Notes under the pieces: model-generated
What the model saw: only the letters and a program-made list of their open reading frames with translations
Told to the model about the DNA's origin: nothing
Databases searched by the model: none
Made by a program: the position numbers and the translations under genes
Source of the DNA: Pseudomonadota bacterium
GTDB lineage: Bacteria; Pseudomonadota; Gammaproteobacteria; Pseudomonadales; Moraxellaceae
Length of the DNA: 64,000 nucleotides
Direction: 5' to 3'
Assembly (NCBI GenBank): GCA_021833365.1
Contig: JAKBFV010000003.1
Coordinates: 1-64,000, forward strand
In this document: piece after piece, positions 13,184 through 19,589 of the stretch
Layout of the letters: every line of letters starts with the position of its first letter
Numbering within the stretch: the first letter of the stretch is position 1

Positions 13184-15787
<2,604 letters not shown>

Positions 15788-15817: not shown

Positions 15818-15846
15818 AGATCGGGATGGCTGCGTCACATTTCAAG
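15818..15846 (-). promoter_or_regulatory. Heat-shock (sigma-32) promoter of clpB
   Basis: On the minus strand CTTGAAA (15846-15840) is followed after 14 bases by CCCGATCT (15825-15818). The sigma-32 consensus is CTTGAAA, 11-16 bases, CCCCATNT, so only one consensus position differs. It starts 31 bases upstream of the clpB ATG, allowing independent heat-shock expression of clpB inside a longer minus-strand cluster. Confidence 0.8.
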
Positions 15847-15860
15847 CGCCGCTGCGACGC

Positions 15861-17147
15861 TCACTGGCGCGTACAGGCAAAATGCTGCTCGCCATAGCGG
15901 ATGACCAGTTTGTCGGCGCTGATTTCCTCGATGTAGCCATCGAGACGTCGGCCCGGCACCTGAAAACTGATGCGACCATCCTGCCTATGGTAGGCCACCA
16001 GACCACGTCGTGACCCGACCTGCATCAAGAGATGGCCATTGGCAGCAAAGTTCATGTCCCAGCTCTGCCCACCGACAGGATCGAAGCAGGACCAGGCGCC
16101 GAGCAGTTTTTCATCGCTGCCCAGGGTCAAGGCGCCGACCGAGCCGAGACCCGCATCACGCTCCTGCATACCGGTGATGAGATCGGCGGCGACGGCAAAA
16201 TTGATGTTCGAGGCCTGAGCCAAGCGGTAGGTGGTGATGCCGATCAGGCGGCCCTGTGTATCGAACAGACCGCCACCACTGGAACCTGGGGAGATCGCCG
16301 CAGTGGTCTGGATGACCCGGCCATCGCCTGGCGCGTGACGCAGGGCGGAGATGACACCGGCGCTCCAGCTCAGCGCCAGGCCACTGGGGGCGCCGAGGGC
16401 ATAGACCGTCTCCCCGACGCGCAGATCATCGCTGGCGCGTATCGGCACCGCTGGACCGGCGTCTTCGGACACCTGTAAACGGCAAAGATCATCGCGGTCA
16501 TCGGCGGTTTCGAGATGCGCCGGGAAGTCGCCTGCCAGCGTCTGGACGCTGAGGCTGGCACCGGATTTGGCGACATGACAGTTGCTGATGATGCGGCCAG
16601 GCGCCACGATGACACCGCTGCCCGAGCCCAGACTGTTGCCATGCGCATCGAGGATGGTGACGACAGCGACGCTCGGCGTCAGGCGACCATAGAGCTCTTC
16701 GGGTGACAGATGCAGCGGCGCCGATGGCACCGGTAGCGCTGCCGGCAGCGGCGCCGGCAACACAGGCGCTGGCGCACTCAACCCCTTCATCGCGACGACA
16801 CCAGCGCGCTGGTGGTAGCCAGCGGCCCACCAGGCCAGAAGTACCAAGGGCAGCAGCCATAGCCAAGTCAGCGAACGCTGGCCACGGCGCTGCGCCGGCA
16901 TGCCACGCCCCGCTGCTTTCGCCTTGCAAGCCGCGTCATAGGCGCGCCGCCGTTGCGGATCACGCAGGCAATTGTAAGCTTCCTGCAGGACCACCTGACG
17001 ATTGCGGTCAAAGTCGACGGCGTCATGCATGGCGGCGCACGCCGCCACATAAGCCGCTTCGATGGCCGCCGGCGAGGCGTCGACAGTGACACCCAGGATC
17101 TGATAGAGGGTCTGCTTGGATGTCTCGACGACAGGATCGCCCATCAT
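15861..17147 (-). CDS. Membrane-anchored trypsin-like serine protease with an N-terminal J-like domain
   Basis: The 428-residue protein joins three parts. Residues about 13-75 resemble a J domain (YQILGVTVDASPAAIEAAY ... LQEAYNCLRDPQRRRAYD), but the HPD motif needed to stimulate DnaK reads H41-D-A. A single membrane helix follows (about 92-110) and then a Pro/Ala-rich linker. Residues about 150-330 form a trypsin/HtrA-type protease with H191 (SNCHV), D220 (DDRDDLCRL) and S290 in SPGSSGGG, so the catalytic triad looks intact. No PDZ domain is evident; about 100 C-terminal residues are unassigned. Topology would put the J-like part in the cytoplasm and the protease in the periplasm. The gene lies between the flavodoxin-like gene and clpB. 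Confidence 0.8.
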   Translation of the reverse strand: MMGDPVVETSKQTLYQILGVTVDASPAAIEAAYVAACAAMHDAVDFDRNRQVVLQEAYNCLRDPQRRRAYDAACKAKAAGRGMPAQRRGQRSLTWLWLLPLVLLAWWAAGYHQRAGVVAMKGLSAPAPVLPAPLPAALPVPSAPLHLSPEELYGRLTPSVAVVTILDAHGNSLGSGSGVIVAPGRIISNCHVAKSGASLSVQTLAGDFPAHLETADDRDDLCRLQVSEDAGPAVPIRASDDLRVGETVYALGAPSGLALSWSAGVISALRHAPGDGRVIQTTAAISPGSSGGGLFDTQGRLIGITTYRLAQASNINFAVAADLITGMQERDAGLGSVGALTLGSDEKLLGAWSCFDPVGGQSWDMNFAANGHLLMQVGSRRGLVAYHRQDGRISFQVPGRRLDGYIEEISADKLVIRYGEQHFACTRQ

Positions 17148-17155
17148 CGACGCGC

Positions 17156-17707
17156 TCAGGATGGCATCCAGCGCAGCGCCATCTGCGCCATCCGCTCGCC
17201 GAGCTGGAAGGCCGTCTGGTGATCGCCAGAAGGCGGCGTCTGCGCCGCCGGAGCATTGTCGGACTGCGCCATCACGCCGAGATGCGAGCCGAGACGATTG
17301 ACCGCCGCTTCATGCGTAGCGCGCCCAGGTTCAGCCTGGCCGATCCAGATCATGGCGTGCTGCGCTGCAAAAATGACGAACTGGATGAGAACATTGAGCT
17401 TGTCACCGCTGAGTCCGTAGGAATTGGTGAACCCCGCCGCCAGCTTATCGCGCCAGCTCTGCTGCAGCCAGCGGCCGGAACTGGCGTCCATGAATTGTTT
17501 GAACTCGGCTGAAGCGCTGCCCATATAGGTGGGGGCGCCGAAGATCAGACCGGCGCAGCGATCGAGGCGCGCCCAGTCGATGGCCGCGACGCTACAGAGA
17601 TAGACGCTGACACCAGCGACGCTGGTGACGCCGGCTGCGACGGAATGCGCCAAGGCAGCCGTATGGCCATGGCGACTGTGATAGACGATGGCGATCTCGA
17701 TGCTCAC
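17156..17707 (-). CDS. Flavodoxin-like NAD(P)H:quinone oxidoreductase / flavodoxin family protein
   Basis: The 183-residue protein starts with a flavodoxin-like FMN phosphate loop (IAIVYHSRHGHTAALAHSVAAG) and continues with LIFGAPTYMGSASAEFKQFMD, the second FMN-contact loop of WrbA-type proteins, and GFTNSYGLSGDKLNVLIQF. Members reduce quinones with NAD(P)H and protect against oxidative stress. It is cytoplasmic. Its ATG overlaps the pgeF stop by 4 bases, and the protease gene starts 8 bases later, so the three genes are probably cotranscribed. The precise substrate cannot be read from sequence. Confidence 0.85.
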   Translation of the reverse strand: MSIEIAIVYHSRHGHTAALAHSVAAGVTSVAGVSVYLCSVAAIDWARLDRCAGLIFGAPTYMGSASAEFKQFMDASSGRWLQQSWRDKLAAGFTNSYGLSGDKLNVLIQFVIFAAQHAMIWIGQAEPGRATHEAAVNRLGSHLGVMAQSDNAPAAQTPPSGDHQTAFQLGERMAQMALRWMPS

Positions 17708-18432
17708 GCGGCGATCCAGATGAGGCTGGCCTGACGGCCGGTGCGGGGTTCGCGGCGGAAGGAAAAATAGTCAGCGCTTTGCCGATAGGTGCACTCGCCG
17801 CCACCTGCGACCTCCTGCACGCCACAGGCATGCAGGCGCAGGCACGCCAGATGATAGAGGTCGGCGTGATAGTATCCCGGCCGTTGTGGCTGAAAAGCCG
17901 CCGCTGCGGCAGCATCATGATGCAAAAAAGTCTGCCTGACCTCTTCACCGACGACAAAGGCGGTCGGCCCTATCGCCGCCCCCAGCCACACCTGCAAAGC
18001 GTCACCGGGGCAGGCAAAACGCCGCACCGCAGCCTCGATGACGCCATCGGCGAGACCGCGCCAACCGGCGTGCACGGCCGCCACCGCGCCACCATCGCGG
18101 CGCGCCAGGAGCAGGGGCAGGCAATCAGCGGTCAACACCGCACAGACCTCGCCAGGGGTTTCGCTGTAGACCGCATCTGCCTGACAATCGCGCGCACAGG
18201 CCGCGTCGACCACGGCGATGCCGTGCACTTGTTGCGGCCAGGCGATGGGATGCGGCAGGGCGAGGAGACGCTCCAGGCGCTGGCGATTGGCGGCGACGGC
18301 GACTGGATCATCGTCGACGTGCAACGCGAGGTTGAAGTCATCGAAAGGCGCCCGACTGGCGCCGCCGGCATACCGACGCGTCGTCGCCGCCTGTACACGC
18401 GACGACACCGCCCAGTGCGGCCGCACGATCAT
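17704..18432 (-). CDS. pgeF: Peptidoglycan editing factor / multicopper-type laccase-domain protein PgeF
   Basis: The 242-residue protein has the family motifs QQVHGIAVVD, ADAVYS, VLTADCLPLLL and AAVHAGWRGL, which supply the His/Cys/His zinc site, plus the C-terminal GGGECTYRQSADYFSFRRE block. The E. coli homologue YfiH removes wrongly incorporated L-Ser from peptidoglycan precursors. Older annotations call it polyphenol oxidase or laccase. In many gammaproteobacteria the order is rluD-pgeF-clpB; here a PhaC-like gene lies before it and two extra genes after it. It overlaps both neighbours by 4 bases. Confidence 0.93.
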   Translation of the reverse strand: MIVRPHWAVSSRVQAATTRRYAGGASRAPFDDFNLALHVDDDPVAVAANRQRLERLLALPHPIAWPQQVHGIAVVDAACARDCQADAVYSETPGEVCAVLTADCLPLLLARRDGGAVAAVHAGWRGLADGVIEAAVRRFACPGDALQVWLGAAIGPTAFVVGEEVRQTFLHHDAAAAAAFQPQRPGYYHADLYHLACLRLHACGVQEVAGGGECTYRQSADYFSFRREPRTGRQASLIWIAA

Positions 18433-19589
18433 GCCGACGCCTCCGGCTGCAGAGCGCCGCTACGCTCGGCCAGCCATTCGGCGCTGATCGCCCAGGTCGT
18501 ATGCACAGCGCTGGCACCGGCGAAGACTCCAGCGTGGCCACCGGGCACGAGATGAAAGCGTTTATCGCGCGAGGCGACGAGATCCATGATGCGATAAGCG
18601 GCGGCCATCGGCACGATGGCATCGGAACTACCGGCGAAAGCCAGCAGGTCACAGTCGATACGCTGAAAGTCGACCTCGCGCTGACCGATGCGCAGACTGC
18701 CACGCGCCAGCTGATTGGCCAGACCGAGCTTCTGCAGCATCTCCTGCACCGTGCCGCCGGGGTAGTCAGCCATGTTGTCGAACCAGGCATTCATCGACAT
18801 ATAGCGGACGATGTATTCACGATCAGCGAGATTGCGCACCATGGACAGATAGCTGGTGAAGGGACTCAAGGGACTGGTCATCTTGAAGGCGCGCGACACC
18901 CATTTGCCCGGCACATGAAAGCGCTCGGCGTCGATCTGATCGAGACGGAAGCGCGTATGCGCGCGTATCCAGGCGCTGGGCGCAGCGATGGCCTGGCTGA
19001 GGCGTCCAGCTACGCCCATGCGGCGGGCATCGAGGGGACTGGCGATGGTGACCAGGGCGGTGACGTCACGGTCATCGCCACAGCCGAGATAAAGCAGGGC
19101 GAGCAGCCCACCCATGCAATAGCCCATGAGATTGAGCTGACGCTGACCGCTGTGTGCCCGAATCGCCTGCATCGCTGCCGGGAACCAGCGCACGACATAG
19201 TCCTCCAGGGTCAGTCCCTGATAAGGCGGGTCTTTCGGGTTGCCCCAGTCGATGAGATAGACCTCATAGCCCTGGGCGAGGAGATAGCGCACCAGGGAAC
19301 GCTCGATCATCAGGTCGAAGATCCAGGCGAAGACGCCGAGCGGCGGCACCAGGACGAGGGGGCGCGTGTAGCGCTGCTGACGCACCACCAGAGTCTCACC
19401 TTCGATGTAGAGATGATCGACGGCGAGCGGCCGGTAATAGCGCACAGCCATGATGCCGTCGCGATGAATCTCTTCATAGGGCGTGCTGTCCTTCTGGATG
19501 AAGCGTTCCGGATAGCGGCGCCGCTGATAGGCATTCTTGACGAAATCCCTGACCTTGCGCCAAGGCCCGGGAGCAAAGCGACGGCTCAT
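18429..19589 (-). CDS. PHA synthase-like alpha/beta hydrolase (class III PhaC size)
   Basis: The 386-residue protein has the PhaC-type nucleophile box G-Y-C-M-G-G (LMGYCMGGLLALLY), a Cys replacing the lipase Ser, followed by an Asp (GSSDAIVP) and a His (PGGHAGVFAG) in triad order. The early block PLVLVPPLGVFAWIFDL and YEVYLIDWGNP is typical of PhaC. Its length is close to class III PhaC (about 355-360 residues), which normally needs PhaE, but no phaE, phaA, phaB or phasin gene is seen nearby. It may be a genuine polyhydroxyalkanoate synthase subunit or a related acyltransferase. Its stop overlaps the pgeF start by 4 bases. Confidence 0.75.
   Translation of the reverse strand: MSRRFAPGPWRKVRDFVKNAYQRRRYPERFIQKDSTPYEEIHRDGIMAVRYYRPLAVDHLYIEGETLVVRQQRYTRPLVLVPPLGVFAWIFDLMIERSLVRYLLAQGYEVYLIDWGNPKDPPYQGLTLEDYVVRWFPAAMQAIRAHSGQRQLNLMGYCMGGLLALLYLGCGDDRDVTALVTIASPLDARRMGVAGRLSQAIAAPSAWIRAHTRFRLDQIDAERFHVPGKWVSRAFKMTSPLSPFTSYLSMVRNLADREYIVRYMSMNAWFDNMADYPGGTVQEMLQKLGLANQLARGSLRIGQREVDFQRIDCDLLAFAGSSDAIVPMAAAYRIMDLVASRDKRFHLVPGGHAGVFAGASAVHTTWAISAEWLAERSGALQPEASA

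Follow-up and report, generated by a model that had tools for sequence, protein, structure and literature searches.

A J-like fold without HPD joined to a membrane-anchored S1C protease domain, encoded beside clpB and in scattered relatives

The locus and its clpB neighbour

The stretch of DNA we analysed, called the window below, is 64,000 nucleotides long. On its minus strand the genes run in the order rluD, a PhaC-like hydrolase gene, pgeF, a flavodoxin-like gene, the J-protease gene that is our subject and clpB. From rluD to the J-protease gene they overlap or are parted by short gaps; 73 bases then separate the J-protease gene from clpB. The features are these.

17156..17707, minus strand: flavodoxin-like gene, 8 bases upstream of the J-protease gene (Pfam FMN_red/Flavodoxin)
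15861..17147, minus strand: the whole J-protease gene, 428 amino acids, with pseudo-J domain, membrane helix, S1C protease domain and C-terminal beta domain (open reading frame, Pfam, ortholog in the same place in the congener G002)
16914..17117, minus strand: J-like domain, residues 11-78, with HDA instead of HPD (Pfam DnaJ above cut-off, four-helix AlphaFold2 model, J-domain matches in the PDB)
16818..16874, minus strand: single membrane helix, residues 92-110 (hydropathy; helix 95-114 in the AlphaFold2 model)
16707..16817, minus strand: Pro/Ala-rich linker, predicted periplasmic, residues 111-147 (low-confidence coil in the AlphaFold2 model; the least conserved part)
16149..16706, minus strand: HtrA-type S1C protease domain, residues 148-333, with H191, D220 and S290 and the conserved C190 and C222 (Pfam, NCBIfam matches below cut-off, fold Z about 25 to HtrA1, alignments)
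15864..16103, minus strand: C-terminal beta domain, residues 349-428, with a GxWxC...C pattern (nine AlphaFold2 strands, homology in L025-L028)
15818..15846, minus strand: sigma-32-like site CTTGAAA-N14-CCCGATCT (exact match; by placement it serves clpB)
13184..15787, minus strand: clpB, the downstream neighbour, separate from the J-protease gene (open reading frame)

The flavodoxin-like and J-protease genes likely share one transcript. Further upstream, the PhaC-like alpha/beta hydrolase gene (18429..19589, minus strand) separates rluD from pgeF and has a 4-base overlap; in families elsewhere in the order, rluD directly precedes pgeF.

An earlier, sequence-only reading of this DNA had taken the position next to clpB as the sign of a stress protease acting across the membrane, in effect a heat-shock protease co-regulated with clpB. 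We now find that idea scarcely credible. It draws on an exact sigma-32-like site between the two genes, the only exact match in the window, which is present in three congeners (G000, G001 and G002). But the site lies 3' of the J-protease gene and 5' of clpB; none stands upstream of the J-protease gene, where a heat-shock gene would have it, and that gene starts within the pgeF operon. Two genomes of the window's family, G003 and G005, have the flavodoxin-like gene and clpB directly adjacent with the J-protease gene missing, and other families show the order rluD-pgeF-clpB. It follows that the J-protease gene arrived by insertion ahead of a clpB unit that was already there; its loss from the other genomes would explain the same pattern less simply. 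Conserved neighbourhoods with chaperone genes, which the heat-shock idea had led one to expect, were looked for and not recovered outside the window's genus: among the neighbours examined, members elsewhere adjoin bufferin-type genes, a glycerophosphodiesterase gene or unrelated genes. Even within the genus the gene can decay, being a relic in G001, the window's sister species, disrupted by deletions and an IS200-type insertion, with a partly duplicated J start, an internal deletion and the protease core lost. That the gene stands beside clpB is a positional accident at the level of the genus.

Some features of these neighbourhoods deserve recording for their own sake. Around the G001 relic (L021:1-500 and the right end of L022; C26/C32), one contig end holds a fragment of an IS200-type (Y1_Tnp) transposase and the other a weak TnpB-like fragment. 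The bufferin-type cluster that adjoins the J-protease gene at L145:4792-8040 and L026:2053-5366 (also in L027 and L028) encodes an MbnB/TglH/ChrH-family enzyme, DUF2063 and small DUF2282 or Cys-containing proteins; it is divergent from the J-protease gene in one lineage and convergent with it in the other. A few genes away from the Aquabacterium homologue lies one for a Tle1-like phospholipase (L026:5497-7299, minus strand), which belongs to a family of type VI secretion effectors.

A J-like fold, a membrane helix and an S1C protease

The sequence-only reading had described a J-like fold without a functional HPD, one membrane helix and an intact His-Asp-Ser set in this 428-residue protein, and all of it is confirmed by Pfam, structural modelling, hydropathy and a check of the codons. 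A whole-protein AlphaFold2 model built on a five-sequence alignment shows four J helices, a membrane-type helix, the S1C domain and, at the C-terminus, a domain of nine strands, at a mean pLDDT of only 66.6 and with disordered linkers.

Pfam DnaJ (PF00226) matches residues 14-71 with an E-value of 8e-8 and 32.7 bits, above the gathering cut-off of 27.8. Modelled alone, the J region forms four helices (14-18, 26-42, 48-62 and 64-80) with a core pLDDT of about 80-90, and its PDB matches are nearly all J domains: the best reaches Z 11.4 over 80 residues, the J domain of dnj-12 gives Z 11.1 (rmsd 1.4 A over 64 residues) and CbpA also gives Z 11.1. A chance match to DnaJ was considered and is ruled out by several independent homologues together with the structure. 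Where HPD is expected, the window protein reads H41-D42-A43. The motif is missing from the G002 ortholog too, and in the Aquabacterium proteins a shortened connection between helices II and III has removed it entirely. Across the family as a whole HPD is found in none of 18 proteins, and in 17 of 17 other readable J domains from the six genomes that hold, or once held, family members (a count that leaves out one further domain, L087).

The surface that would meet Hsp70 has changed as well. In DnaJ, the residues contacting DnaK are R22, K26, R27, K48 and K51 (PMC8215388); in an alignment made by eye they correspond to E30, V34, A35, V52 and Q55 of the window protein, which keeps none of the five basic residues, while the Aquabacterium forms keep three. 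Set beside canonical J co-chaperones (classes A-C), the protein has the fold of about 60-70 residues but neither HPD nor the basic DnaK contacts. By its sequence it belongs with the type IV, or pseudo-J, proteins, which are defined by a recognisable J domain whose HPD is non-conservatively replaced (PMC13254874). A further mark of that class is that Hsp70 ATPase is not stimulated, which would be predicted here as well. One such protein suggests a role: Pam16, which has no HPD, binds and inhibits Pam18 (PMC13254874). By analogy, the J-like part could bind a true J protein (DnaJ or CbpA) or DnaK, damping or recruiting it at the membrane and linking Hsp70 to the protease. The three basic contacts kept in Aquabacterium would suit such a modulator; their complete absence from the window form, and the lack of nearby chaperone genes outside the window's genus, make it quite unlikely in our view.

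Loss of the motif has not meant loss of constraint. The J part has a dN/dS of 0.14-0.31, near that of the protease (0.15-0.23) and below that of helix and linker (0.37-0.78), values that are rough since synonymous sites are close to saturation in several pairs. On this measure purifying selection evidently acts on the J part.

Hydropathy places one membrane helix at residues 92-110, and by the same crude measure the hydrophobic stretch is single in 17 of the 18 family proteins; L143_7 has a second, weak one. The earlier claim that the J part and the protease lie on opposite sides of the inner membrane fares well in some respects and less well in others. No signal peptide is apparent in the sequence, and the window protein has six Lys and Arg residues before the helix and two after it. 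Conserved cysteines occur only beyond the helix, in parts predicted to be periplasmic (C190 and C222, plus C354 and C425 in proteins that have the C-terminal domain), and this points to disulfides outside the cytosol. In several homologues, however, the positive-inside charge contrast is weak or runs the other way. The topology we infer, with a cytosolic J part and a periplasmic protease, is consistent with these data.

The protease half is easier to recognise. Trypsin_2 (PF13365) matches residues 176-304 with an E-value of 4e-26. A codon-by-codon check puts H191 at 16577-16575, D220 at 16490-16488 and S290 at 16280-16278, and the three are invariant among five aligned full-length proteins. 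Throughout the family, C190 and C222 are kept beside the catalytic His and Asp, and the triad is intact in all members except two tandem partner paralogs. The S1C domain is presumably proteolytic. Its fold matches HtrA1 at a Z of about 25 over 188 residues, and HtrA1, DegS, DegQ and DegP together at Z 23-25. HtrA-type NCBIfam models also match, far below their equivalog cut-offs (the DegS model TIGR02038 gives 80.7 bits against a cut-off of 422.95), and Pfam finds no PDZ domain in the protein.

Beyond the protease is a domain that the sequence-only reading had missed, at about residues 349-428 and with two conserved cysteines. Homologous domains occur in L025-L028, and L135 and L136 have a similar GxWxC...C end. 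Pfam has no match to it in the window protein; the only one obtained, a weak match to META, is in L042. Another match extends into this region: the S1C-NTF2 structure of Clostridium thermocellum RsgI9 (7sjy), at Z 23.4 over 233 residues. The RsgI9 S1C domain is reported to autocleave and to bind polysaccharide (PMC12203970), so one might picture a sensor that passes a signal inward once its S1C ectodomain has bound a ligand or cleaved itself. We hold this to be very unlikely. HtrA chains score as well as RsgI9 or better, the triad is kept outside the two partner paralogs, and the cytosolic part has DnaJ as its sole Pfam match, with no anti-sigma domain found.

A patchy family and its descent

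Homologues with the same order of J-like fold, helix and protease had been the natural thing to seek, and 17 other proteins were recovered: the G002 ortholog from the genus, proteins from three Aquabacterium-group species and from 10 more Burkholderiales genomes, and three tandem paralogs. A scan of a genome collection with a two-sequence alignment gave the G002 ortholog, three end-to-end matches in the Aquabacterium group and relatives in Nitrotoga that share the protease only; whole-genome sampling then gave G705 and, from 389 genomes of the order that holds Aquabacterium, nine more, and the tandem paralogs come from beside L131, L132 and L134. L042 is a possible nineteenth member, which starts at a contig edge with its N-terminus out of view. 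We rejected the idea that L131, L132 and L134 are broken J-proteases with stops inside, as the stops are the ends of upstream genes.

The distribution is patchy, with members in 3 of 42 Aquabacterium-group species and in about 10 of those 389 genomes. From the window's own order 294 genomes were sampled with a C-terminal query, and from its phylum 388; outside the window's genus these samples gave only J-less relatives. Genome G1837, whose match coordinates equal those of G451 in the family sampled around Aquabacterium, is labelled as the same class as the window and a different order; the window's genus therefore has the family in an order other than the one in which it otherwise occurs. A plausible inference is horizontal transfer. 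As for other origins, phage and plasmid collections gave only ordinary S1C domains and no full-length match, and a mobile, phage or plasmid origin was set aside; so was a defence system, the only match being a generic S1 one to RT-Protease_XI.

In a tree of the protease domain, all the J-bearing proteins and the truncated L042 split from 35 J-less relatives with branch support of 98/94. The tree is rooted on the very distant L039, the sole other row on the J-bearing side, and its bootstrap is not fully settled; it fits a single origin of the J/protease fusion. It also bears on a concern of the sequence-only reading, that homologues with the protease alone and unrelated N-termini would undo the fusion. 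Such relatives do exist, but they are confined to a separate clade and therefore leave the fusion standing.

Those relatives invite a plainer explanation of the J part, namely that it is a degenerate remnant standing where a periplasmic S1C protease once had its signal peptide, so that only anchoring matters and there is no specific partner. The closest relatives without a J part are indeed secreted S1C proteins that carry signal peptides and various C-terminal modules, TPR among them. G001 has lost or broken the gene, and the Pfam DnaJ score drops to 16.4 bits in L043. Yet the J core is kept in all 18 members, including two partners with a damaged catalytic site; the J part has a dN/dS close to that of the protease; and a fold of 65 residues is superfluous for a plain anchor. 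We regard the remnant explanation as unlikely. (In Nitrotoga and relatives, fusion of the secreted NCHV/DLC S1C family to TPR repeats is common, as in L029-L038, L040, L072, L073 and L138.)

Three genomes carry tandem pairs of J-like S1C genes only 3-5 bases apart (L143:7000-9018, L144:7087-9336 and L146:6144-8185). One partner, L146_5, has lost the catalytic Ser (GANGG) and another, L144_6, the catalytic Asp (DLNLC), each keeping J part and helix; the third, L143_7, keeps both catalytic residues. Judged from these residues, L146_5 and L144_6 form protease/pseudoprotease arrangements with their tandem partners.

A possible docking module, and known systems

The reading we prefer, and consider probable, is of a periplasmic protease, anchored in the membrane, with a pseudo-J domain in the cytosol that serves as an Hsp70-independent docking or assembly module. 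The protein would be a bitopic inner-membrane serine protease whose S1C and C-terminal beta domains face the periplasm and there cut or bind a substrate. Its N-terminal J fold would remain in the cytosol and would no longer drive Hsp70, because HPD is lost and so, for the window protein, is every one of the five basic DnaK contacts. Like the J-like domains of Tim16/Pam16 and CJD1/ARC6, it may act as a protein-docking or assembly module, by which a cytosolic partner, or the pairing of one J-like domain with another, would place or regulate the protease at the membrane. Binding to other J or J-like domains is known for J-like domains that lack HPD (PMC3196505, PMC13254874), and it is the analogy with these that points to a docking role and to the kind of partner. 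The best hint within the family is the tandem pairs: J part and helix kept despite damaged catalysis would fit assembly through the non-catalytic parts. Whatever the role, it is dispensable, since the family is patchy and the gene is lost in the sister species G001. A fuller proposal, which we put forward more tentatively, is that these are monophyletic trans-membrane proteases in which HPD was lost in the common ancestor, the J part became an Hsp70-independent assembly or docking element, and some lineages came to pair an active with a catalytically damaged partner through the J-like and membrane parts.

Each half of the protein has known counterparts, the type IV pseudo-J proteins for one and the S1C proteases for the other. 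A literature search turned up no account of a J domain fused to an S1C protease; its coverage was partial, and an earlier description is possible. The closest relatives of the protease domain, the secreted S1C proteins of Nitrotoga and Burkholderiales, share the same NCHV and DLC cysteines, and those of Nitrotoga are 40-47% identical to the window protein. They differ in having a signal peptide in place of the J fold and helix, in their TPR or other C-terminal modules, and in forming a separate clade. RsgI9 has a similar plan, with a cytosolic domain, one membrane helix, an S1C-type ectodomain and then a further domain (PMC12203970; 7sjy), but there the cytosolic domain is of the anti-sigma-I kind and the last domain is NTF2. 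DegS and the HtrA proteases (MEROPS S1C) share the S1C fold and the triad and, in DegS, a single N-terminal membrane anchor; the window protein differs from them by its cytosolic J fold, its C-terminal beta domain and the lack of a PDZ match, and so adds a membrane-anchored HtrA-type architecture without a PDZ domain.

The type IV proteins Pam16/Tim16, CJD1 and ARC6 offer the nearest likeness for the other half, a recognisable J fold with HPD replaced, and several proteins of this type are membrane proteins that use the J fold for protein binding (PMC13254874, PMC3196505). Neither paper describes a protease in Pam16/Tim16, CJD1 or ARC6, whereas the window protein has an S1C protease beyond its helix. 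A 2026 review (PMC13254874) calls it enigmatic whether J domains without HPD are accidents or have been selected. The present family, compact and bacterial, combines a fixed loss of HPD with purifying selection on the J core and with a protease attached as an assayable output, and the question of accident or selection therefore becomes testable.
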